DNA from: Antedon bifida
Lineage: Eukaryota > Echinodermata > Crinoidea > Comatulida > Antedonidae
NCBI GenBank assembly: GCA_963402885.1
Contig: OY727096.1
Location: forward strand, 21,123,820 to 21,187,819
DNA length: 64,000 bases
Reading direction: 5' to 3'
Position numbers and translations under genes: made by a program. This document shows positions 1 through 60,122 of the stretch, piece after piece; within the stretch, counting starts at the first letter, position 1; the number at the start of each line of letters is the position of its first letter. The notes under the pieces were generated by a model. That model saw nothing but the letters and a program-made list of their open reading frames with translations, was not told the origin of the DNA and searched no databases.

Positions 1-1240
1 CACTATTGACGACGACGTGGAGTAGGAGGCGTTTAAACCTTTTAGTTAAATCATTTTTTAATATCATAAATATCGCAATAAATCTGATACATGAATTTAT
101 TCATATTTTTCTACGCACAGAGATGAAATGTATTTTCATATTTCTATTTGTACTTTCGATACAAAAATGTAAGACTTGTGTATGCGTTAAGTGACGATTA
201 ATGCCAACCATTTAACAGTCTCTTAAGTGGACACTTCTAATTAGACTTGACATGTATAACTATTTATAATTACATATATATGTACTACTGTAAAATGAAA
301 TTGTAATAATAATAATATATTTTTAAGCAAAATGTTTCGGTGTTTGTCGTCGGTTTGTCTTTCTGTAATTAAGATTATTTTGTAGAAAAATCCAAATACT
401 AAAAATAGTTATTATCACTGACAGAAGATAATTGATTTTTTTTTAAATCACTGTTCGTAATATTGTAACCATTAAAATCGTAGGCTTATTGTCATTATAA
501 GACAAACATCGAAAATGAGTTTTAATTGAAAATTATTCAATAAAGATTATTTTGTAGAAAAATCCAAATACTAAAAATAGTTAGTCCTATTATCATTGAC
601 AAAAGATAATTGATTTTTTTTTAATCATTCGTATTATTGTAAACATTAATATCGTAGGCTTATTGATAATTATAAGATAAACATCGAAAATGAGAATATA
701 GTTTAATTGAATATTGTTATTCAAACATATTTAGCCTGATGGTCTGTATGTCTGTCTGTCTCTCATTTGACATGTTATTAACACATTGTCATACTCTGCG
801 ATCGCAAATCTGAAGTCGTCAAGGATATTAAGCAGAATTCTCCAGGCTATCAGCAGATAGCTGTATAATCTCAATAAGTCAAATTTGCATTTTCTGAGAA
901 GATTACAATTCATGACTATGATTGGATTATCAATAATAATTGCTAAAAATTACATAAAATAATTGTTATGGTAATCAAGCTATTTCATGATACGATACTT
1001 ATATTTAACGGTAATTGGTTGTTTGTATGTTTTTCGTTTTGATCATTTATATCGCTTTACAAAGAACGATTTCAAACCAAACTTCCAACATAATATCAGT
1101 CAATCTAAACTTTACCAACCAAATCAGTTAACCACATCCAGCCAACCGATTGGGTAACCGATTCATGCAAACAACCAATCAACTGCCTAGAAAGCAAAAC
1201 AATTAACTAACCATTTACTAACCAACCGAGTGACCAATTA
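1..1240. other. AT-rich non-coding stretch with a tandem duplication
   Basis: No gene can be supported here. Positions about 371-542 and 543-716 are an imperfect direct duplication with a period of 172 bp; both halves carry GATTATTTTGTAGAAAAATC and a later ATCGTAGGCTTATTG. From about 1080 to 1240 the DNA is a degenerate AACCAA/CAACC-rich simple sequence. Confidence 0.5.
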
Positions 1241-1492
1241 CTAACCTACAAGCGAGAAACCAGTTAAATCTGAAACATCCAGATAGTCTGATGACTTTCC
1301 CGCCTCGGCTGCTTTGCTTATATCTCGGATTGCTTTCCTCCAGTCCTGTATGTTTTCTGCTATTCTCCGAATCGTTTCTATATCTTTTATGCTATTGATC
1401 CTAGGGGGGAGTGCAGCTGATGATTGTTTATGAAGGGTGATCAGGTCGTTCGATAGAGTTACATCAGTAAAACTAGATAAACTAAATCGCAA
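1241..1492 (-). CDS. hypothetical terminal exon, unrecognised
   Basis: An 83-codon open frame ending in TAG at 1243-1241. It has a balanced, protein-like composition, with a charged helical stretch (KDIETIRRIAENIQDWRKAI) and an acidic end (SSDYLDVSDLTGF). A possible acceptor TTTATCTAG lies just inside the frame, so the true exon may start near 1465 rather than at the ATG. Codon composition looks more coding than its surroundings. I do not recognise the family and see no partner exon nearby. It may be a real 3' exon, an old transposon fragment or chance. Confidence 0.25.
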   Translation of the reverse strand: MRFSLSSFTDVTLSNDLITLHKQSSAALPPRINSIKDIETIRRIAENIQDWRKAIRDISKAAEAGKSSDYLDVSDLTGFSLVG

Positions 1493-1521
1493 ACCGTATT
1501 AACCACCATTGGAGGTTCCTA

Positions 1522-1557
1522 ACCAGGGAGTTGTAATTACTATTACAACTCCCTGGT
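1522..1557. repeat. perfect 16-bp-stem hairpin
   Basis: ACCAGGGAGTTGTAAT (1522-1537) is followed by the loop TACT and its exact complement at 1542-1557. No T-run follows, and this is a eukaryotic context, so it is not read as a terminator. It could be the core of a small fold-back repeat. Confidence 0.7.
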
Positions 1558-2057
1558 ATAACATAGTCGGTTTAGCCATACCATGGTTTAGCCACGGAGA
1601 AAGGTAATAAGCATACTTTATTTCCATGGTATAGCCGCTACATTTCGTTTAACCGTTTCAGCAACGGTAAAACAACAACAATGTGAATCTCGTGAATTAC
1701 AGCGAGAATAGTTCAAAACGAACTAGTTGTAGAATACTGTATATTATAATAATTTATTTGAAGTTTGCTCTGGCCAGAAGAGTCGTTGTTTATCGTTCCA
1801 TGGAGAGTTACAATAATAACAGCCATATATACGATCGAATACGTATTATTGATGATCAGGCAATCATATTTTGGTAGATAGTGCGCAAGGACCGAAATTT
1901 GTGTGGGTATTCATACGATAAACAAAGAAACAAAGTATAATAATAAAGATTAATAAATAAAACGAGCATAAAAGCCGAGTATGTAAACTTGTTATGGCAA
2001 AAGCGTACTGAAAAAGATGCATAATAGGCTAACATGCAATGCTTGCTGCATACTTAA

Positions 2058-2215
2058 AGCTCTGTCTACACTATCAAAGTGTATGTGACAAAAAAGTGTG
2101 ATGTGCCCAAATATTGTAGCGATATGCCCAATTATGTGATATGACATCCTCGTGTCCATATATGGACACATCACATTTTTTTTGTCACACAAAATGTGAT
2201 AGTATAGACAGAGCT
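2058..2215. mobile_element. palindromic MITE, copy 1
   Basis: Begins AGCTCTGTCTACACTATCAA and ends with the inverted copy. Both flanks are TAA (2055-2057, 2216-2218), consistent with a 3-bp target duplication. The interior carries the family's near-palindromic GTGATGTGCCC...GGACACATCAC segment. Confidence 0.85.
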
Positions 2216-2593
2216 TAAAAGGCACGTACGTGTTCGTACGTAGGGCAAATCTATTGCGAGATAAATTATCGGGAATTGTAATTTGAAAATTATGCGACTA
2301 ACGATTAAAAGTGAAAACAAATTTGATTAAAGGTGTGTGAAATTATAATAGTCTCAAATGAACGTAAAAGGTTATATGTGAAACGGTTTTGAAATAAATG
2401 TGAAAATTAATATATAGCAATCGCGATTTATTTCTATTGCTTGACAGCTTCGATGAACAGCTCATTAGGTATCAGTGCTACGTCATCATTCGATGCTCCT
2501 CAGGGGTAGTGCACTGAAATGCAATAGTATATATCAATTTATAACGCGATCTTTTGCAATAAGTTAATCAAGCAATATTTGGTATGTGCTTAA

Positions 2594-2863
2594 AGCTCTG
2601 TCTACACTATAAAACTAGTTAGACAAAAATATATGTGCCCATATATGGACATGAAGATATCATATCACTACCATATTTGGGCATCACTACCATATTTGAG
2701 CACATCACTGCACACTTTTTGTGTGTTTTAGTCGCGTGTAAACGCGACTCTACAGCTCACTATGTCGGTCGGTTGGTAAACACTAACTCAAATTTGAGCA
2801 TGCGACAGCAGCCATATTGTATAATATGGCCTTGTTTTTTAGTTTGATAGTGTAGACAGAGTT
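2594..2863. mobile_element. palindromic MITE, copy 2, enlarged
   Basis: Same termini as the family but about 270 bp long. An insertion containing GTCGCGTGTAAACGCGAC, itself a short hairpin, sits between the interior and the right terminus. Flanks are TAA on the left and TTA on the right. Confidence 0.75.
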
Positions 2864-3158
2864 TTACATCGTACTTTTTATAAAGGTACGAAGAGACACT
2901 GTGCGCAGTGCCACTTATGGAATCGCTCAGAATGCCATTCTTTATTCGGTATACTCAGCTTTGAAAAAAAAATGTAAATGCACAACGCTGAAATATTGAG
3001 GCAGGCAGCATACATTTACCAAAGTGACGTTAATCACCGTAAACTGTTCCATATTCTGTGAACTCATCGCACATTGCTGTTGTTGACTAAATCAAATAGT
3101 AAATATCTAGTTTTGAACGAATTTAAATTTAAACTTCTTTTTCGTTTTTGATTTACAG

Positions 3159-3649
3159 ATCCGTCATATCCTCCGCTGTGGCAGCAATCACATCAGACGG
3201 GCTATTACCCGCCCCAGACGAACCAACAGATTTGCCAACCACCGATTTACCAACCAAACACTGGTCAATACCTGGCAAACCAGCCTGTGTACCCACCACC
3301 ACCACACACCGGTGGTCAGTACCACACTGACCAATTCCAGCAGATTGCTCCATATTCATCATCTGGCCTTCTTCAAGCAAATCAACCGATGAATATGGCA
3401 ACAAAAACTGCTGTAGTAGCTTACACGCATGGTCCGCCAGGTTCGGATCAACATACAATCAAAATGCAAAAGCAGCAGAACGAGTGGGTAGCCCTGGACA
3501 GCGTCTGTCCAACTTGTAGAACTGACTTAAAAGTGTCATATTCGGTTCTTGGAATTTGCTGTGCGGTTTTCTTTTTTCCTATGGGGTTGATATGTTGCCT
3601 CATGATGTCGAAACAGAGGTGTCCCTCGTGTGGAGCTATTTATAAGTAA
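3159..3649 (+). CDS. BRI3: BRI3-like membrane protein, last exon (5' exons not found)
   Basis: The exon follows the acceptor TTTACAG at 3152-3158 in phase 1 and runs open to TAA at 3647-3649. Seen: a Pro/Gln/Tyr-rich N-terminal part (PPLWQQ, GYYPPQ, VYPPPP), then a compact C-terminal domain with CPTC, a hydrophobic stretch (SVLGICCAVFFFPMGLICCL) and CPSCGAIYK at the very end. This paired CPxC / CPxCG arrangement around a membrane-inserted segment is that of brain protein I3, related to LITAF domains, which are Zn-binding and peripheral on endosomal or lysosomal membranes. The spacing and the exact C-terminus match BRI3 better than LITAF. The 5' exon with the start codon was not identified, so the feature is partial. 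The in-frame GTG at 3287 is only an internal valine. Confidence 0.8.
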
Positions 3650-3899
3650 AGACTCAAATCATGCTTCATTCTGGCGCACGTGTCACTAGCTGCTACATTA
3701 TTAAAACAATTAGGCTTTGTGTAAAAACATTGGAAATACTCCTCGATGTGCTATCATCATGTACGAATTGTGCTATACCAATGCGACGACTTTATAACAA
3801 AAATGTCAGGAATAACTAAGGGAGAAGAAAGGGAGAAACAAGACAGTCACATTGAAACAGTGACGTTCTGAATTGAACAAATGCATTATTTAATGTTGT

Positions 3900-4130
3900 T
3901 TGTTGTAACCAGTTGCGTAACAGCTATGATGAGCGCTCACTGGCTAAACCCAGGGCCCCAGAGTTTATGGGGAGCCCCTGAGCAGTGCCAAGAGGAAAAA
4001 TCAGGCATTCAAATATGTCGAAAAAGCTCAAAACGCCCGAGGTCTACAGCATTGGAGGGCCACAAAGGGTTCCTACACCAGGGGCCTCAGGCATCTGCGT
4101 TACGCCACTGGATGGAACAACAATAAACGA
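3900..4130 (+). repeat. dispersed repeat, copy 1 of 3
   Basis: Contains GCTCACTGGCTAAACCCAG followed by GGAGCCCCTGAGCAG and later a GCATCTGCGTTACGCCACTGG end. The same succession recurs at about 27525-27710 (+) and 40545-40690 (inverted). Short open frames here are side effects of the repeat. Family unknown to me. Confidence 0.6.
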
Positions 4131-4488
4131 ATACGAACGACATTATTTTACTGAGCTATTACGAAAAAACTCTTATCACCCAACTGATAATCATTATGCA
4201 ACATGATATCTCAAGATATGAAAGTAATAATAATAGTAATAACGGTACATTCTAAACATTATAATCTGTATTCTGTATACTTCTTTCACGTAAAGAATAT
4301 ATTATTATCGATTTTAACACTTGGAAATACAACATTTAGTACACCTTGTATCCGTCACAAAATAACATAAATCGATCATGAATATTTGTTACAGTTATTG
4401 TGTCTACTGCTATTAGGCCTAAGGTGAGTATAACAATGGTGTAGGTGATCAATGCTTGCTGTATGTTGCTGTCACTGAAAATACTAAA

Positions 4489-4690
4489 TGTAATAGCCCG
4501 CACCCTTGCGGGGTGTGTTATTTTTTCTCCTATGATGTTAAGGCAGAAGTCATGAATAATTCATGACTCACATTATAACATTAAGGGGTCGCTATATATT
4601 TGTTTATTCATAGAAAATAATGAGGGTCGTGAATTATTCATATTCTGCCTTAACCTAATAGGAAAAAATAATGCATCCGGGGTACATACT
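4489..4690. mobile_element. fold-back element (MITE candidate)
   Basis: Arms at about 4519-4570 (TTTTTTCTCCTATGATGTTA, AAGGCAGAAGTCATGAATAA) and 4625-4672 are imperfect inverted copies: the second arm carries TTATTCATATTCTGCCTTAA and then AATAGGAAAAAAT. This is a small non-autonomous element of unknown class. Confidence 0.55.
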
Positions 4691-4855
4691 TTCTGTGTTT
4701 ATTGTGGTTATTATATGCAAATTTAAGCCAATAATCAAATATACGGGATATACAATGGTTCTGAGTGAAAGAATAAGAGGACTTCCACGGCCGTCCGTCG
4801 ACTTAAAAACGTTCTTGCTGTGTGTCGTACGACGATGTGTATATAGCTAGCCTAA

Positions 4856-4996
4856 AGCTCTGTCTACATTATCAAACTGTATGTGACAAAAAAATGTGAT
4901 GTGCCCATAATATGGACATGATTATTTTATATCACTACCATATTTGGGCACATCACACTTTTTTTGTCAAACTAGTTTGATAGTGTAGACAGAGCT
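4856..4996. mobile_element. palindromic MITE, copy 3
   Basis: Family termini AGCTCTGTCTACATTATCAA and TTTGATAGTGTAGACAGAGC. Left flank TAA, right flank TTG. Confidence 0.85.
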
Positions 4997-4999
4997 TTG

Positions 5000-5290
5000 G
5001 GTTTGGAATTTCTGCGAACAAAATTAAATTGTTTTTATACGTCAATTTTAACGGACTTTGTTTTTATTTGTTTTTATTTAGTCGTTCAAAATAAAATCAT
5101 CATCAGTACGCTGAACCCGCAGTCGTGGGTTTGGGATTTTAGACTGCTGGTCGCTAACCTTTCACAAATCCACTGCAGATACACAACAGTACGGGAATCG
5201 CTCTTAGCAATCGCCTACTCTCCATTATAGATAACTGGCGTAGGCTGTTGTACAGTCCATTTTGTCATTGGTAAATAAATTAATTGAATT
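5000..5290 (+). repeat. probable LINE 3' end fragment
   Basis: Ends in a TAAATAAATTAATTGAATTG tail, the kind of short tandem tail that closes LINE copies. The upstream frame is degenerate. Weak call with no recognisable reverse transcriptase motif. Confidence 0.3.
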
Positions 5291-5745: not shown

Positions 5746-6037
5746 AATTGTGTTTCTCTGTTATGGACGTTTTTTTAAAATGAAATTCTATTATACCAGC
5801 ATGGTCAGATGCTAAAACTCCAGTTAAACGCTGCTTTAACCATTTGACTCAGTACTGAAAAATATTCCTATACAAGAATCAAGGGTCGCTACATAAAAAC
5901 ATTAACATAATGGTTATGTATAACACGATTTGTTCAAGAAGACTATGTGCATAATACTCAGTACTATAAGCAGCCAACAAGAAACTGATTCTACGATCGT
6001 TATATATAGGCCTACAGTTTAAAAACGTTGTTAGATA

Positions 6038-6317
6038 CAACTCTCCCAACACATTAACATAATTTTGTTAGATATATCGAAACAATCTACATAAGACTTA
6101 TATAATATAAGTACAATGCTTCAACGATAGGCAAGTAAGCAAAGTCACTACAACAGAAATAGATGCACAAAAATCTACAACTCTCCCAACACATTAACAT
6201 AATTTTGTTAGATATATCGAAACAATCTACATAAGACTTATATAATATAAGTACAATGCTTCAACGATAGGCAAGTAAGCAAAGTCACTACAACAGAAAT
6301 AGATGCACAAAAATCTA
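6038..6317. repeat. perfect tandem duplication, 2 x 140 bp
   Basis: The 140 bp that include CTCTCCCAACACATTAACAT at 6041 recur without a visible mismatch at 6181 and finish AGATGCACAAAAATCTACAA. The identity implies a very recent event, or an assembly duplication. Confidence 0.9.
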
Positions 6318-7195
6318 CAACAGTATCGCATCACATTATTTCATTGTATGGATACGTTTCGTGACAGTGATAAGAGAAACATAGATCAATGGTTTACAAC
6401 AAGACAAATTGATGGATTGGACAACGACACGAACTAGACAAGCACTGTAGCTAACATGACATTTATTTCAAATCCTAATCAACCGGATGTGACGTAGATA
6501 TTCCTCTTTGGTACAGAGATAGAAAGTAATTATTCTGAAGGCTTAATATCTTTCGTCTTGAATCTATATAAGACCTCGGTACATGGTGTGTAAATATTAT
6601 AGTATTATACTTGAATTTAAACGCGCATAAGGCCCTCTATGACGGACAGGCAAAAAGCAGGATTTAATGAATGAATAGACCTACAATTTAAAAATGTATA
6701 GGCTACACATGAAGGTATACTTCCATGGGCTACATTTATCACAAATAACGCAGATTTAAAACAAAATTGTAGATTAGCGGAATAATATAAAGAACACAAT
6801 TTAAAAGGCTATATTTAATTGATCATTTCAACTGATTAGTTAAACGTTCTTGTGATGTCAATTGTCGGCCGGGAATGTACTCGTTAGCTGCAGAATTGGA
6901 AAGACAATTAACACATTCAACATTAGTATAGTACACTACTTTAAATAGAGACCACATTTTATAATCAAAATTAGATATTTTGTTAAAGGAAGGAGGCATA
7001 ACCAAAGATGGTATAGCGGCGCTATATTATCTTTGGCAGTCTTTGTAGAGAGCGCGTATTAATTTATCCACACGCGCTTTAATTTAAATTAACGTCAAAG
7101 AATTTTCGCGCGCAATTTAAAAGGAGTTTATTCCACGCGGAGTCTTTTGGACCATTACATTTTTCTTATTGTCTATCTAATACACTTCATTAAAA
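6318..7195. promoter_or_regulatory. upstream region of the armadillo-like gene
   Basis: No coding frame seen. A perfect interrupted palindrome, TATAGCGGCGCTATA, lies at about 7012-7026, followed by GCGCGTATT and an ACGCGCTTT-containing stretch before the ATG at 7196. The CpG-containing segment 7005-7140 differs from the AT-rich surroundings and is the likely promoter. Confidence 0.35.
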
Positions 7196-13597: not shown

Positions 13598-14731
13598 ATG
13601 TCGTACTGTGGGTGGTTTTCTGGAGAAAAGTACAAAGACCATTTTAAAGATGGTAATTTGGACCCAAAATTTACTATTTTTTAGGCCTAGAGTAAGTAGA
13701 GTACTCTGCTACTGCTGGGCTGGCCTCTCTCCCAGGATAGGCCTGGCTAGGGCTAGATCAAAGAGAGTAAAACCAAAAGGCCCTGCCTCTCTATACTTAG
13801 GCGGAAGTAGTTGTTGTTCCTAGCTTTTAGCTAGTTTAGGTAGTAGAAGTAGGCCTAGTAGTAGTAGTCAAATTGTTTTTTTACAAACCAGGTCCAAGTC
13901 GTGTTTGACATCTCTTGCGTTTTGTTGTATCCGTAATATAGTAAACCCAAAAAAGTATTATTTAATGGGGTTTTTTTTCAAGGTATGTACACATGCTCAA
14001 AATGTGGCTATGAACTATTTGACAGCAAGAAGAAATACAAACACTCGTCACCTTGGCCTGCATTTACAGATACCATTCACACTGACAGTGTCTCCAAAAG
14101 AGAAGAAAGTAAGAATGCCTTGAAAGTAAGTCAACAAATATATTACTTTTTTAAGCGCTATTTCAGAGATATGTCCTGGAATTATATTTTACAATTTTTA
14201 ATTCTCTGTAAACCGATCAATGTTGTGATACCTTCCTATCGCTTCACAAAAGTTTGACCAAGAGATTTTTTTTGTGTAGGTATCCTGTGGAAAATGTGGT
14301 AATGGTTTGGGGCATGAGTTTCTTACCGATGGGCCTGATGGCAAATCACGCTTTTGAATATTCTCAGAGTCTTTGAAGTTTGTTGCTTTGAAGACTCAAG
14401 GTGAGTACTTTTTCATCTAACCTCTAAAAATTGTAGTCAAAATATACTCATGTTATTATATACTGTAAATATATAATTATAATATACTCATGCTATCAAC
14501 ATTACATAGTTACAAAGTTTCGAAGTTACACAGTGTGGATCTTCTCAGGGCTTTATTTGTTTTTATTGACTTCTTTTTTTTTTAGTGATGTTTATGATGA
14601 TTTTTGTATGTGCTTGTATTTTCTTCTTTGTTTTTTATATTGTAAATTGTTGAAATGAAATGCAATATTATTATATAATAACCATGTTTTTTCTTTAATT
14701 TCTAGAAAAGAATGGAGAGGTGCAGAGGTAG
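13598..14731 (+). CDS. MSRB1: methionine-R-sulfoxide reductase B1, selenoprotein, 4 exons, 114 aa
   Basis: Exons 13598-13652, 13983-14125, 14280-14400 and 14706-14731 total 345 nt. The product reduces methionine-R-sulfoxide in proteins, in cytosol and nucleus. Seen: resolving Cys4 (MSYCGW), zinc pairs C23/C26 (CSKC) and C69/C72 (CGKC), the HSSPWPAF motif, GLGHEF, and then GKSRF followed by an in-frame TGA at 14355-14357 and IFSESLKF. That TGA is exactly where MSRB1 carries selenocysteine (Sec92 here), and the frame continues through a good donor and acceptor to TAG at 14729-14731. Length matches the family (116 aa in human). A SECIS element lies downstream at about 15.24 kb. A standard ORF caller would truncate the protein at the TGA and lose the catalytic residue. 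Confidence 0.95.
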
Positions 14732-15221
14732 AAAGCCTTCAACTGACAATGTACGCATTCCCCTGGAGAAAACTAGTTGCCTCATCACAGATAGCACAAA
14801 ATATTTAGCTAATTAAAGATATATTGTTTCTCCCTTGTAAACATTTTGTTGTTGTTGAATATGCCATTTTAATGTCACATATTAGTTATTCACTTTGACA
14901 AAAAATAGTAGAATTGGCTGCCCGCCAATGGGTATTTAGTTACATTTAACCAATTATTTTGTCTTTTTCTAAGTGAAAACTTTTTTTTTCCTACAGAAGA
15001 GATTAACTTTATTAAAACTGCAAAATGGCATACTAATTTTATTAATCTTAATGTTTTTGGAAGACAATACATTTTTAACATTAAATGCAATTGATAGTAG
15101 TACTATTATCAAATATTTATTAAACATAGTATATTTCATGAGTTAACTATAAAACTAAGCACAAATACTTAAGTTTGCATTAAACCTCCAGGGAAGAGCA
15201 TATTTTAATGTTTTTGTAGCA

Positions 15222-15300
15222 TTACGGACCAAAGTATGACACGCTCAAGTTAAAGCCTTACATGGACGACTTGGAGAGTTGAGGTATCTGGCCATGCTAC
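15222..15300 (+). promoter_or_regulatory. SECIS element of MSRB1
   Basis: Core ATGAC at 15236-15240 and the opposing TGAG at 15280-15283 give the non-Watson-Crick GA/AG quartet. Eleven bases after the 5' core is the unpaired AAA (15252-15254) of the apical loop. Helix II pairs ACGCTCAAGT with ACTTGGAGAGT, with one G.A mismatch and one bulged G. All distances fit a eukaryotic SECIS, which recruits SBP2 and eEFSec to decode UGA as Sec. It sits in the 3' UTR, either in the last exon or in an exon after TTTTTGTAG (15210-15218). Confidence 0.9.
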
Positions 15301-15805
15301 TAGAACATCAAAATATCCTATTTATTTTATCTACTCAGTATATATATATCAAGGTACAATGTTTGCAATATTTTTATATGATAAGTTATATTGAAATGTT
15401 AGCAAAGATGTAATAAATGAATCATAATTAGGACTTAATGTAATTCAAAGTGAAGTAGTACTCAAAAATAAATAACAGACATTGTGTTCAAAGAGAGTGC
15501 GTTTTATTGATAGCAGTGCATGTTGGACCATTCTTTGATGTCGCCGCCTATGCAAATCCTTTGTCATCGTCGTCACGTCCATGCTCACATGTAACGACAC
15601 CTAAGTTTCCTCTTGACAACACAAGTGAGTTGACCAATCACAAAGGAAAATTCGGACGATCCATCGCGGTTTAATTGGTCAAATAATATACAGCGTTCGA
15701 GGGGAAACATTAAATGACATACCTGTTGACAAACCAAGCTTTAAATCAACTAGGTAAACGCAACAAAATCATTTTTTTCGGTTTGCCGTCAATTAATTGA
15801 TCAAA
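15301..15805. promoter_or_regulatory. end of MSRB1 3' UTR and upstream region of the tandem copy
   Basis: AATAAA-type signals occur at 15412 and about 15466. From 15530 a less AT-rich segment (GATGTCGCCGCC, CGTCGTCACGTCC) resembles the CpG part of the MSRB1 promoter. It is the likely promoter of the second copy, so the duplicated unit may include promoter sequence. Confidence 0.4.
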
Positions 15806-16970
15806 ATGTCGTTCGCTGGATGGGGTGGAGAAGTATACAAAGATCATTTTGAAGATGGTAATTTGGAGTTTAATTTGCTCTTTAACGACTGCAGATAGAA
15901 TTAAAGTAGGCTTAAGTTCCTTGGCAACATACCACTACAGTTATAGTACTAGAAGGTCGCAATTGGCTAGAGGTTAAGCCCCTAGTTAGTACTACCTAAG
16001 TTAGGCCTAGGGCCCATGCAACTTTGTAAAGCATTTAGTTAGTAAAAACTAGTACACATTTTAGCAATTTTCTTTTAATACCAAAAACCATATAGTAGAA
16101 CTGTAGAGTGCTGGCAAATTCCAAGTGCAATATTTTTCGCGCCGCGGCTCTAGCCAGCTATATGTCCCAAGAGAACATATTCATTAATAAGCTGTTTCAT
16201 AGCAGTAGCTTTAGTAGTATCTAAGGCCGACAGTTTTGCGAATTTGTAAACTCAACTATAATTTATAGGTCCCAGCTGCTGGACCCAAAAAACGTCTGGG
16301 CGTGAGTCACGTTGTCTCTAGAGGGTATTCAGTTGCATGCCTACAATACAGGTTGAGGTCACACACAAACAGGCTACAGCATATCTCCCCATATAACTCA
16401 TAAACATATTCATTATGTGCATATTATCGAGGGAGGCATAGACTAACCAAACCAGTAAACCAAGCTTGAAAAGGTTCAAACTGCTTCTTTTTTTTTGTCT
16501 TTGCAAGGTATCTACAAATGCTCAAAATGTAACAATGAGCTATTCGACAGCAAAGCGAAATATAAAGACTCATCAGCTTGGCCTGCATTTACAGAGACCA
16601 TCAACGCTGACAGCGTTTTCAAAAGAAAAAAAAGTCAGAATGAATTAAAGGCAAGTCAACAAACTGAATAGCAATATATTTATTGACTTTTTTTATTGAT
16701 AGCTGACATGTCAACTATGAAGCAATAGAACTTATATCTGCACATGCTTACAAACCAATCAGTGTTGTGATAGAATCCCATCTTAAAAATAGTCAGAAAA
16801 AGCAGGTTTGTGCAGAAAGTTTGGCCAAGAGATTTAAATTGTCTTTTTCTGTGTAGGTATCCTGTGGAAAATGTGGTAATGATCTGGGATCTGAAATTAT
16901 TGGCGGTGGTCCCGACGGCAAGTCACGCTTCCAAATATTCTCGTCATCTTTAAGCTTCATTCCTGCTTAA
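15806..16970 (+). CDS. MSRB1-like pseudoenzyme, Sec replaced by Gln, 3 coding exons, 102 aa
   Basis: Coding exons 15806-15857, 16508-16650 and 16857-16970 total 309 nt with TAA at 16968-16970. The same exon boundaries and phases as the neighbouring MSRB1 show tandem duplication. Zinc ligands are kept (CSKC at C22/C25, CGKC at C68/C71), as are WPAFTETI and PDGKSRF. The Sec codon is CAA (Gln91, 16932-16934). Resolving Cys4 is Ala4 (MSFAGW). The His of GLGHEF is Ser (DLGSEI), and HSSPW is DSSAW. With neither the catalytic nor the resolving residue it should not be a methionine sulfoxide reductase. The frame, splice sites and zinc knot are nevertheless intact, so it is not an obvious pseudogene. 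Intron 2 uses a GC donor (AAG|GCAAGT). A fourth, non-coding exon begins at 17079 and carries a SECIS. Confidence 0.85.
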
Positions 16971-17117
16971 GGTAAGCAGTTTCTCACTCACATGATCAAA
17001 ACCTCTAAAAATGTAATAGCTCTAAATATTCTCATATTATTTATTTCTCAGTCATGTTTTTTTTTCTTTAATTTCTAGAAATGAATAATGAAATGCAACA
17101 GTAAATAGCATGTTACA

Positions 17118-17196
17118 TTACGAACCAAAGTATGACACGCTCAAGTTAAAGCCTTAAATGGATGACTTGGAGAGTTGAGGTATCTGGCCATGCTAC
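17118..17196 (+). promoter_or_regulatory. SECIS element in the 3' UTR of the Sec-less copy
   Basis: Core ATGAC 17132-17136, apical AAA 17148-17150 and TGAG 17176-17179. All of the core, both helix II strands and most of the loop equal the MSRB1 SECIS; only a few loop or flank bases differ. It lies in the 3' UTR exon starting at 17079. No in-frame UGA exists for it to decode in this transcript. Confidence 0.85.
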
Positions 17197-17198
17197 TA

Positions 17199-17660
17199 GA
17201 ACATCAAAATATCCTACTTATTTAATTACTTTTCTTAGGACTACAGTATATATTTATTAAATAAAATCAGGGTACAAAGTTGAGAATTTGGCAATATTTT
17301 TATAGGGTATTCATATTGAGATATCAGGAATTTAAATTAATAGCATAATATTGAACATCAAAATGTCATATTTATTTTAATACTCTTCTTAGAATTACAG
17401 TATATATTTATTAAATAAAATCAGTGTAAAATGTTTAAAACTTAGCAATATTTTGTATACAATAGGATATTCATATTATTCAGATGTTATAGGAAAGATG
17501 CTGTTAAGATAAAAATTGCATTATTATAGCATAATATTGAACATCAAAATATCCTATTTAATAACTTACTCAGGGTCACAGTATTAAATAAAGGTACAAG
17601 GTCTTAGCAATATTTTTGTATGATACATTATTATGAGATGTTAGTAAGCATAGATGCAAT
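17199..17660 (+). repeat. three diverged copies of the MSRB1 3' flank
   Basis: AACATCAAAATATCCTATTT-like starts recur at about 17199, 17354 and 17538, each followed by TTATTAAATAAA and GCAATATTTTT. One unit also follows the SECIS of MSRB1 (15305). This is local tandem amplification of the poly(A)-signal region downstream of the second gene. Confidence 0.65.
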
Positions 17661-17877
17661 AAATTAATATTATTTTGACTTCTAAGTAAATTAGTACAGT
17701 ATTCAGTATTCCGAATCTAATTAATATGGTAAAGAAAATTACATTTTTGATCTGTTTTTTTAGTTAGTGAGGGTTGTTCTGGGAGTCTTGATGTGCAAAA
17801 TAAAGAAAACCAATACTGTATTGGACAAATTATAAATGTATATGTAAATTAATATTCCTAAATTTGGATACAGTTGT

Positions 17878-59600: not shown

Positions 59601-59605
59601 AGCGA

Positions 59606-60122
59606 TGTGAACCAACTGTTATATGCGCACATGTGAACCAACCGAATACATGCGCACATGTGAACCAACCTGTTATAGGCGCACATGTGAACCAACCTGT
59701 TATAGACGCACATGTGAACCAACTTGTTATATGTGCACATGTGCACCAACTGGTTATATGCGCACATGTGAACCAACCTGTTATATGCGCACATGTGAAC
59801 CAACCTGTTATATGCGCACATGTGAACCAACCTGTTATATGCGCACATGTGAACCAACCTGTTACCTGCGCACATGTGAACCAACCTGTTACATGCGCAC
59901 ATGTCAACCAACCTGTTATAGGCGCACATGTGAACCAACCTGTTATATGCGCACATGTGAACCAACCTGTTATATGCACACATGTGAAACAACCTGTTAT
60001 AGAGCACATGTGAACAACCTGTTATATGTGCACATGTGAACAACCTGTTATATGCGCACATGTGAACCAACTTGTTATATTTGCACATGTGAACCAACTC
60101 GTTATATGCGCACATGTGAACC
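59606..60122. repeat. 27-bp minisatellite, about 19 copies
   Basis: Unit CCAACCTGTTATATGCGCAC ATGTGAA with scattered substitutions. Because 27 is a multiple of three and the unit has no stop in several frames, long frames appear on both strands; they are not genes. Each unit holds the palindromes TGCGCA and CACATGTG. Confidence 0.95.

Follow-up and report, generated by a model that had tools for sequence, protein, structure and literature searches.

A tandem MSRB1 duplicate in Antedon bifida with a replaced catalytic pocket, possibly retained as a zinc beta-tent protein

Antedon bifida carries two MSRB1 (selenoprotein R, SelR) genes side by side, the second of which encodes neither selenocysteine (Sec) at the catalytic position nor the resolving Cys and is still followed by a SECIS element. 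Does this second gene (copy 2) encode a catalytically dead protein that is held for some other role, or is it a gene in decay? A sequence-only reading of the window, by which we mean the whole stretch of 64,000 nucleotides analysed, had proposed that it is a pseudoenzyme that took on a new role. The contig that contains the window measures 34 Mb and the genome 315.6 Mb.

The MSRB1 locus and its two genes

The two MSRB1 genes are arranged head to tail between a ubiquitin-family gene and a THUMP-domain gene, both on the minus strand. A Pfam search of the whole genome gave four exon-sized matches at E <= 0.001, one in copy 1 and one in copy 2. The other two fall in an MsrB of the Cys form at another locus, with the sequences CGAHLGHVF and RYCINSASL. 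The features of the two copies are as follows.

13598..14731 (+), MSRB1 gene, copy 1, 114 amino acids, Pfam SelR 76.4 bits
13598-13652, 13983-14125, 14280-14400, 14706-14731 (+), coding exons of copy 1
14355-14357 (+), Sec codon TGA of copy 1
14729-14731 (+), stop codon TAG of copy 1
15236..15282 (+), SECIS core of copy 1 (ATGA ... AAA apical ... TGA)
15806-16970 (+), coding span of copy 2, start codon to stop, 102 amino acids
15806..15857 (+), exon 1 of copy 2 (Cys4 to Ala)
16508..16650 (+), exon 2 of copy 2 (zinc Cys22 and Cys25; DSSAW for HSSPW)
16651..16652 (+), GC donor of copy 2 intron 2 (AAG/GCAAGT)
16857..16971 (+), exon 3 of copy 2 (zinc Cys68 and Cys71; GSEI for GHEF)
16932-16934 (+), former Sec codon of copy 2 in exon 3, CAA, Gln91
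16968-16970 (+), stop codon TAA of copy 2 in exon 3
17079..17232 (+), last exon of copy 2, untranslated, to the end of the shared block; predicted by homology, and the true 3' end may differ
17116..17232 (+), block common to both copies, matching 15220-15336
17132..17178 (+), SECIS core of copy 2 (ATGA at 17132 to TGA at 17178), with no in-frame TGA to serve

Copy 1 is an intact, normal selenoprotein gene. It departs from none of the 31 columns conserved at 95% among 119 outgroup rows (the 123 aligned rows minus both copies, P0006 and P0007). The genome gave 36 matches to the tRNA-Sec model, two of them above the cut-off of 47 bits, at 79.2 and 77.8 bits; in the control of this search, 5 of 14 genomes had a match above the cut-off. 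On finding this tRNA, we rejected the idea that the species has abandoned Sec, and since copy 1 is also intact, Sec use as such seems not to have been lost. A further 30 of the 36 matches, all below the cut-off (40-42 bits), lie outside the window at G000:C15:20910118-20917947, in tandem at a spacing of about 165 bp or its multiples, and this cluster is probably an ordinary tRNA gene array.

The three intron junctions of copy 2 and their phases are identical to those of copy 1, with intron lengths of 650/206/107 as compared with 330/154/305. A retrocopy was rejected because the introns are kept. The frame is open over 102 codons with no frameshift and no internal stop, in agreement with the earlier claim, and the product contains a SelR domain with two CxxC zinc motifs (Pfam SelR 64.8 bits). 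The sequence-only reading had also described the zinc cysteines and the exon structure as kept; this stands for the four cysteines, the junctions and the phases, but not for the gene as a whole, as intron 2 is of the GC-AG type and an early stop falls in exon 3, so that copy 2 lacks the C-terminal tail found in copy 1, and exon 4, which retains the old frame, is untranslated from copy 2. The donor of copy 1 intron 2 is AAA/GTAAGT, and thus the exon-end base is A in copy 1 and G in copy 2. The GC donor otherwise fits the donor consensus, and GC donors are described as being closer to the consensus in their remaining bases (PMC2490688). Because the TAA lies one base 5' of the last junction, nonsense-mediated decay of the transcript would not be expected.

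Copy 2 is closest in identity to copy 1 (71%). In a tree built from 33 hand-chosen rows of the 123, in which a rough bootstrap leaves the branching not settled, the two copies share a fork with the proteins P0002 and P0003 (89/80), and copy 2 groups with these two instead of copy 1 (95/36, an unstarred fork). This non-sister placement may mean that the duplication is older than assumed or that the long branch of copy 2 is misplaced. No orthologue of copy 2 was found among 6 matches from 32 candidates, and no close orthologue of copy 1 in related crinoids among the matches listed (best 120 of 723); since those matches hold no near-identical copy 1 orthologue either, the absence of a copy 2 orthologue says little. 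The downstream THUMP-domain protein showed 87% identity to Antedon mediterranea and 69% (71% of length) to Anneissia japonica, the best two of its 184 matches, among the 120 listed.

The catalytic pocket and the zinc scaffold of copy 2

The replacements first described were all found. The Sec codon reads CAA (Gln91), the resolving Cys is Ala4, where 113 of the 123 aligned rows have Cys, HSSPW in exon 2 reads DSSAW, and GHEF reads GSEI, which makes copy 2 the sole row to replace this His (one further row has a gap). The damage is, however, wider than in the first observation, as the pocket is replaced beyond Sec and Cys4. Copy 2 departs from 5 of the 31 columns conserved at 95%, by H39D, P42A, H78S, F80I and D83G in copy 1 numbering, and C4A, A64E and Sec92Q are further replacements; few rows carry a residue in the Sec column, as most of these proteins end at TGA. 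The methionine sulfoxide site of MsrB is described as W73, R97, H111 and F113 of 3HCI together with the catalytic residue (PMC4287342). From the ends of the alignment, W43, H78 and F80 would correspond to 73, 111 and 113, and A64 is placed opposite Arg in MsrB3 alignments. Among the residues of this site, copy 2 retains only the Trp.

When the resolving Cys is included, the literature names six catalytic or ligand positions, and five of them are replaced, the pocket Trp being left. Among the other columns conserved at >=90% in the same 119 rows, 4 of 37 are replaced (Fisher p = 0.0007, a test that is partly post hoc because Sec, Cys4 and His had been flagged beforehand). The p value is 0.012 without Sec and Cys4 and 0.054 without Sec, Cys4 and A64. 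Four of the five replaced pocket codons differ from their copy 1 counterparts at two bases each. The sequence thus combines lost catalytic residues with kept fold residues, the combination looked for in an MSRB pseudoenzyme. Catalytic death of copy 2, one half of the original proposal, is well supported by the sequence. The other half, a new role, has indirect support from the contrast between pocket and scaffold, the open frame and the donor consensus. The protein would at most bind something, and its candidate ligands may be methionine-containing peptides, partners of MSRB1 or others.

The substitution rates were estimated from this genome alone. The pairwise comparison of the copies gave dN 0.18, dS 0.62 and dN/dS 0.29 (bootstrap 0.13-0.61). 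When the changes were divided in three ways, the dN/dS of the copy 2 branch was 0.60 at the share of the protein tree, 0.54 from polarised changes and 0.49 at a lower, freely chosen share (P = 0.15, 0.10 and 0.03, respectively, against 1). The value of about 0.5-0.6 is not clearly below 1. Copy 1 had a dN/dS of ~0.11 at the protein-tree share, and the end branches in the protein tree were 0.53 for copy 2 and 0.10 for copy 1. Neutral drift was simulated from copy 1 by uniform substitution without indels at seven lengths (0.03-0.31 per site), with 3000 runs each. At least five pocket changes together with at most seven scaffold changes appeared in no more than 0.13% of the runs at each length, and the observed scaffold changes are four. 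The frame was stop-free in 51%, 16% and 5% of the runs at 0.05, 0.15 and 0.31 substitutions per site, respectively, and a mean of 10.6 of the 37 scaffold columns was broken at 0.15. Pocket changes are too few after short drift, and long drift damages the scaffold and in most runs introduces a stop as well. It is the contrast between pocket and scaffold, not the rate, that suggests selection on the scaffold.

The SECIS elements and the shared 3' block

The claim that a SECIS lies 3' of copy 2 with no UGA to serve was borne out. When both strands of the window were scanned with a home-made pattern, the SECIS of copy 2 scored highest (8.8), followed by that of copy 1 (7.8) and then by an unrelated site on the plus strand (7.6). 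Twenty shuffled plus strands, in which the base composition was kept in 300-base blocks but dinucleotides were not, gave 14 matches at >=7.5, so that the score alone proves little and the position in homologous 3' ends carries the case. The Rfam search returned no SECIS match and one chance-level SmY match. The folding energy is unremarkable (z -0.50 and -0.99 for copy 2, -0.90 and -0.09 for copy 1). The core and the apical helix are intact in copy 2 and slightly stronger than in copy 1 (-9.7 vs -8.6 kcal/mol), while the fold with flanks lacks the basal helix (-16.8 vs -19.9). Of 27 pairs in the copy 1 SECIS fold, three are broken in copy 2, all of them basal.

The shared block has 10 mismatches over 117 positions, 3 of them within the first 101 columns. 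Elsewhere the copies differ at 42% of synonymous sites and by 28% from exon 2 to exon 3, intron 2 included; the second value comes from alignments of chosen segments, as a global alignment of the locus misplaced exon 1 and the SECIS region. The longest identical run in the block is 53 nt, a length reached in 0 of 5000 shuffles, and the identity continues beyond the SECIS stem. In a DNA search of the genome, the block was found at two places only, namely the two copies, and its origin from a dispersed repeat was rejected on this ground. Gene conversion followed by slight decay is the best account of this alikeness and fits better than continued use, although lasting selection on the copy 2 SECIS is possible. 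Leftover SECIS elements are in print beside a GPx1 pseudogene (PMC3316567) and a Sec-less SelK (PMC2500217), and the copy 2 SECIS therefore needs no special role. Behind it, at 17199-17672, a segment is repeated about three times in tandem (17199-17300, 17353-17454 and about 17526-17672).

The distance from the former Sec codon to the SECIS is 90 nt in the predicted spliced mRNA of copy 2 vs 573 nt in copy 1. Mammalian distances are reported to range from 207 to 5207 (PMC3316567), and the minimum is quoted as 51-111 nt (PMC2901347, PMC3316567). It could be that the damage to copy 2 began with this short spacing.

Competing readings and related systems

The reading that we favour, at about an even chance, is that copy 2 arose by tandem duplication of MSRB1 and became a catalytically dead zinc beta-tent protein whose scaffold is still held. 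The order of events that we infer would begin with the tandem duplication. The 3' UTR of copy 2 would then have been shortened (or that of copy 1 lengthened), so that 90 nt came to separate the Sec codon and the SECIS, a distance within the quoted minimum range at which Sec insertion could be weakened. The TGA would next have been lost via Arg or a stop, and the rest of the pocket replaced while the scaffold stayed under selection. The SECIS of copy 2 would most likely be a non-working leftover that gene conversion from copy 1 has refreshed.

A quite possible but somewhat doubtful account is that copy 2 was long a working selenoprotein and has only recently lost selection, so that it is now drifting with a frame left open by luck and a SECIS that has not decayed. 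The branch dN/dS near 0.5-0.6 agrees with this, as do the early stop with loss of the C-terminal tail, the GC donor, the three broken basal SECIS pairs and the half of simulations that remain stop-free at 0.05 substitutions per site. There is also a precedent, as a conserved GPx1 pseudogene with its SECIS intact and SelW pseudogenes, with Ka/Ks hinting at selection, are described as judged non-functional as coding genes (PMC3316567). On the other hand, short drift does not account for the replacement of five of the six pocket codons, as four of the replaced codons differ from copy 1 at two bases each, and longer drift would break many of the 37 scaffold columns, of which only four are changed.

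Two accounts in which the SECIS of copy 2 is itself maintained appear far less probable. Selection could keep it as part of a second 3' UTR if exons 1-3 of copy 1 were spliced to the last exon of copy 2, which we consider very unlikely. Such a transcript would be in frame past the Sec codon to a TAA, its tail EMNNEMQQ resembles EKNGEVQR of copy 1, and the SECIS block is near-identical despite the synonymous divergence; but copy 1 already has a SECIS and a last exon of its own, the identity exceeds the SECIS structure, and the basal pairs are lost in copy 2. It is likewise highly improbable that copy 2 is expressed and maintained by selection as a zinc beta-tent binding protein while its SECIS is kept as a working RNA element on a UGA-less mRNA; if so, it could for example bind the SECIS-binding protein and tune Sec insertion in copy 1. 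An assembly or sequencing artefact is hardly credible. No point in its favour was found beyond the single assembly on which the locus is based, and the 34 Mb contig, the unequal intron lengths, the divergence along the locus and the two base differences between CAA and TGA speak against it, in line with the earlier statement that CAA is no sequencing slip.

Changes from Sec to Cys are well documented. Replacement by another residue in a duplicated selenoprotein gene is described for the selenophosphate synthetase paralogues SPS1, with Thr, Gly, Leu or Arg in different animals (PMC4561486). SPS1 is conserved across species in that account, whereas copy 2 is known from one genome, and the insect SPS1-UGA form is described as having no SECIS, while copy 2 has one (PMC4561486). 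The preferred reading, if true, would make MSRB1 the second family after SPS1 with a non-Cys replacement of Sec in a kept duplicate. It would also describe a methionine sulfoxide reductase paralogue in which Sec, the resolving Cys and the pocket were lost together with the zinc scaffold held. Searches of an open-access part of the literature gave nothing on an MSRB1 selenoprotein in echinoderms, regeneration work only for selenoprotein and crinoid, and no methionine sulfoxide reductase pseudoenzyme, the last as judged by title and start of abstract.

Copy 2 resembles MSRB1 in its sequence family, exon junctions and phases, SelR domain with two CxxC zinc motifs and 3' SECIS (the last by the home-made scan and homology, with basal pairs broken), but has neither Sec nor Cys at the catalytic position, lacks the N-terminal resolving Cys, and carries other residues for the pocket His and Phe. 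The CULT domain of cereblon, Yippee and Mis18 are described as sharing the beta-tent fold of MsrB, with a groove for ligands and, in most cases, a zinc site; CULT is described as needing no catalytic residue (PMC4287342). CULT has aromatics at the places of MsrB R97, H111 and F113, where copy 2, under the numbering deduced above, has Glu, Ser and Ile (PMC4287342), and copy 2 derives from MSRB1. If the preferred reading holds, copy 2 would represent an early step along the path by which, as the beta-tent fold suggests, a reductase could turn into a binding domain.

The human GPx1 pseudogene likewise has a SECIS beside a copy with no use for it, but contains a stop, unlike copy 2, whose frame is open and whose pocket is lost as a set; it also serves as a warning that an intact SECIS and a moderate Ka/Ks do not prove function (PMC3316567). 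The SelK gene of D. willistoni has a degenerate but recognisable SECIS and differs in continuing as a Sec-less protein (PMC2500217). Amphioxus Bf.SelP_a, of tandem origin, has two SECIS and no C-terminal Sec, but one Sec remains, and surplus SECIS are also reported in a deiodinase cluster (PMC3473315).

Several repeats were observed elsewhere in the window. A tandem duplication at 6036-6321 (2.0 copies of 140 bp, 100% alike) is either very recent or an assembly matter. In a 27-bp minisatellite at 59605-60122 (19.3 copies), two frames of the minus strand stay open, over 165 and 188 codons. Units of 19-21 bp resembling CATATCACTACCATATTTG, a likeness judged by eye, form short tandem arrays in both orientations.

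2664, 27151, 31282, 33116, 37713, 47107, 61514 (either orientation), arrays of the CATATCACTACCATATTTG-like unit
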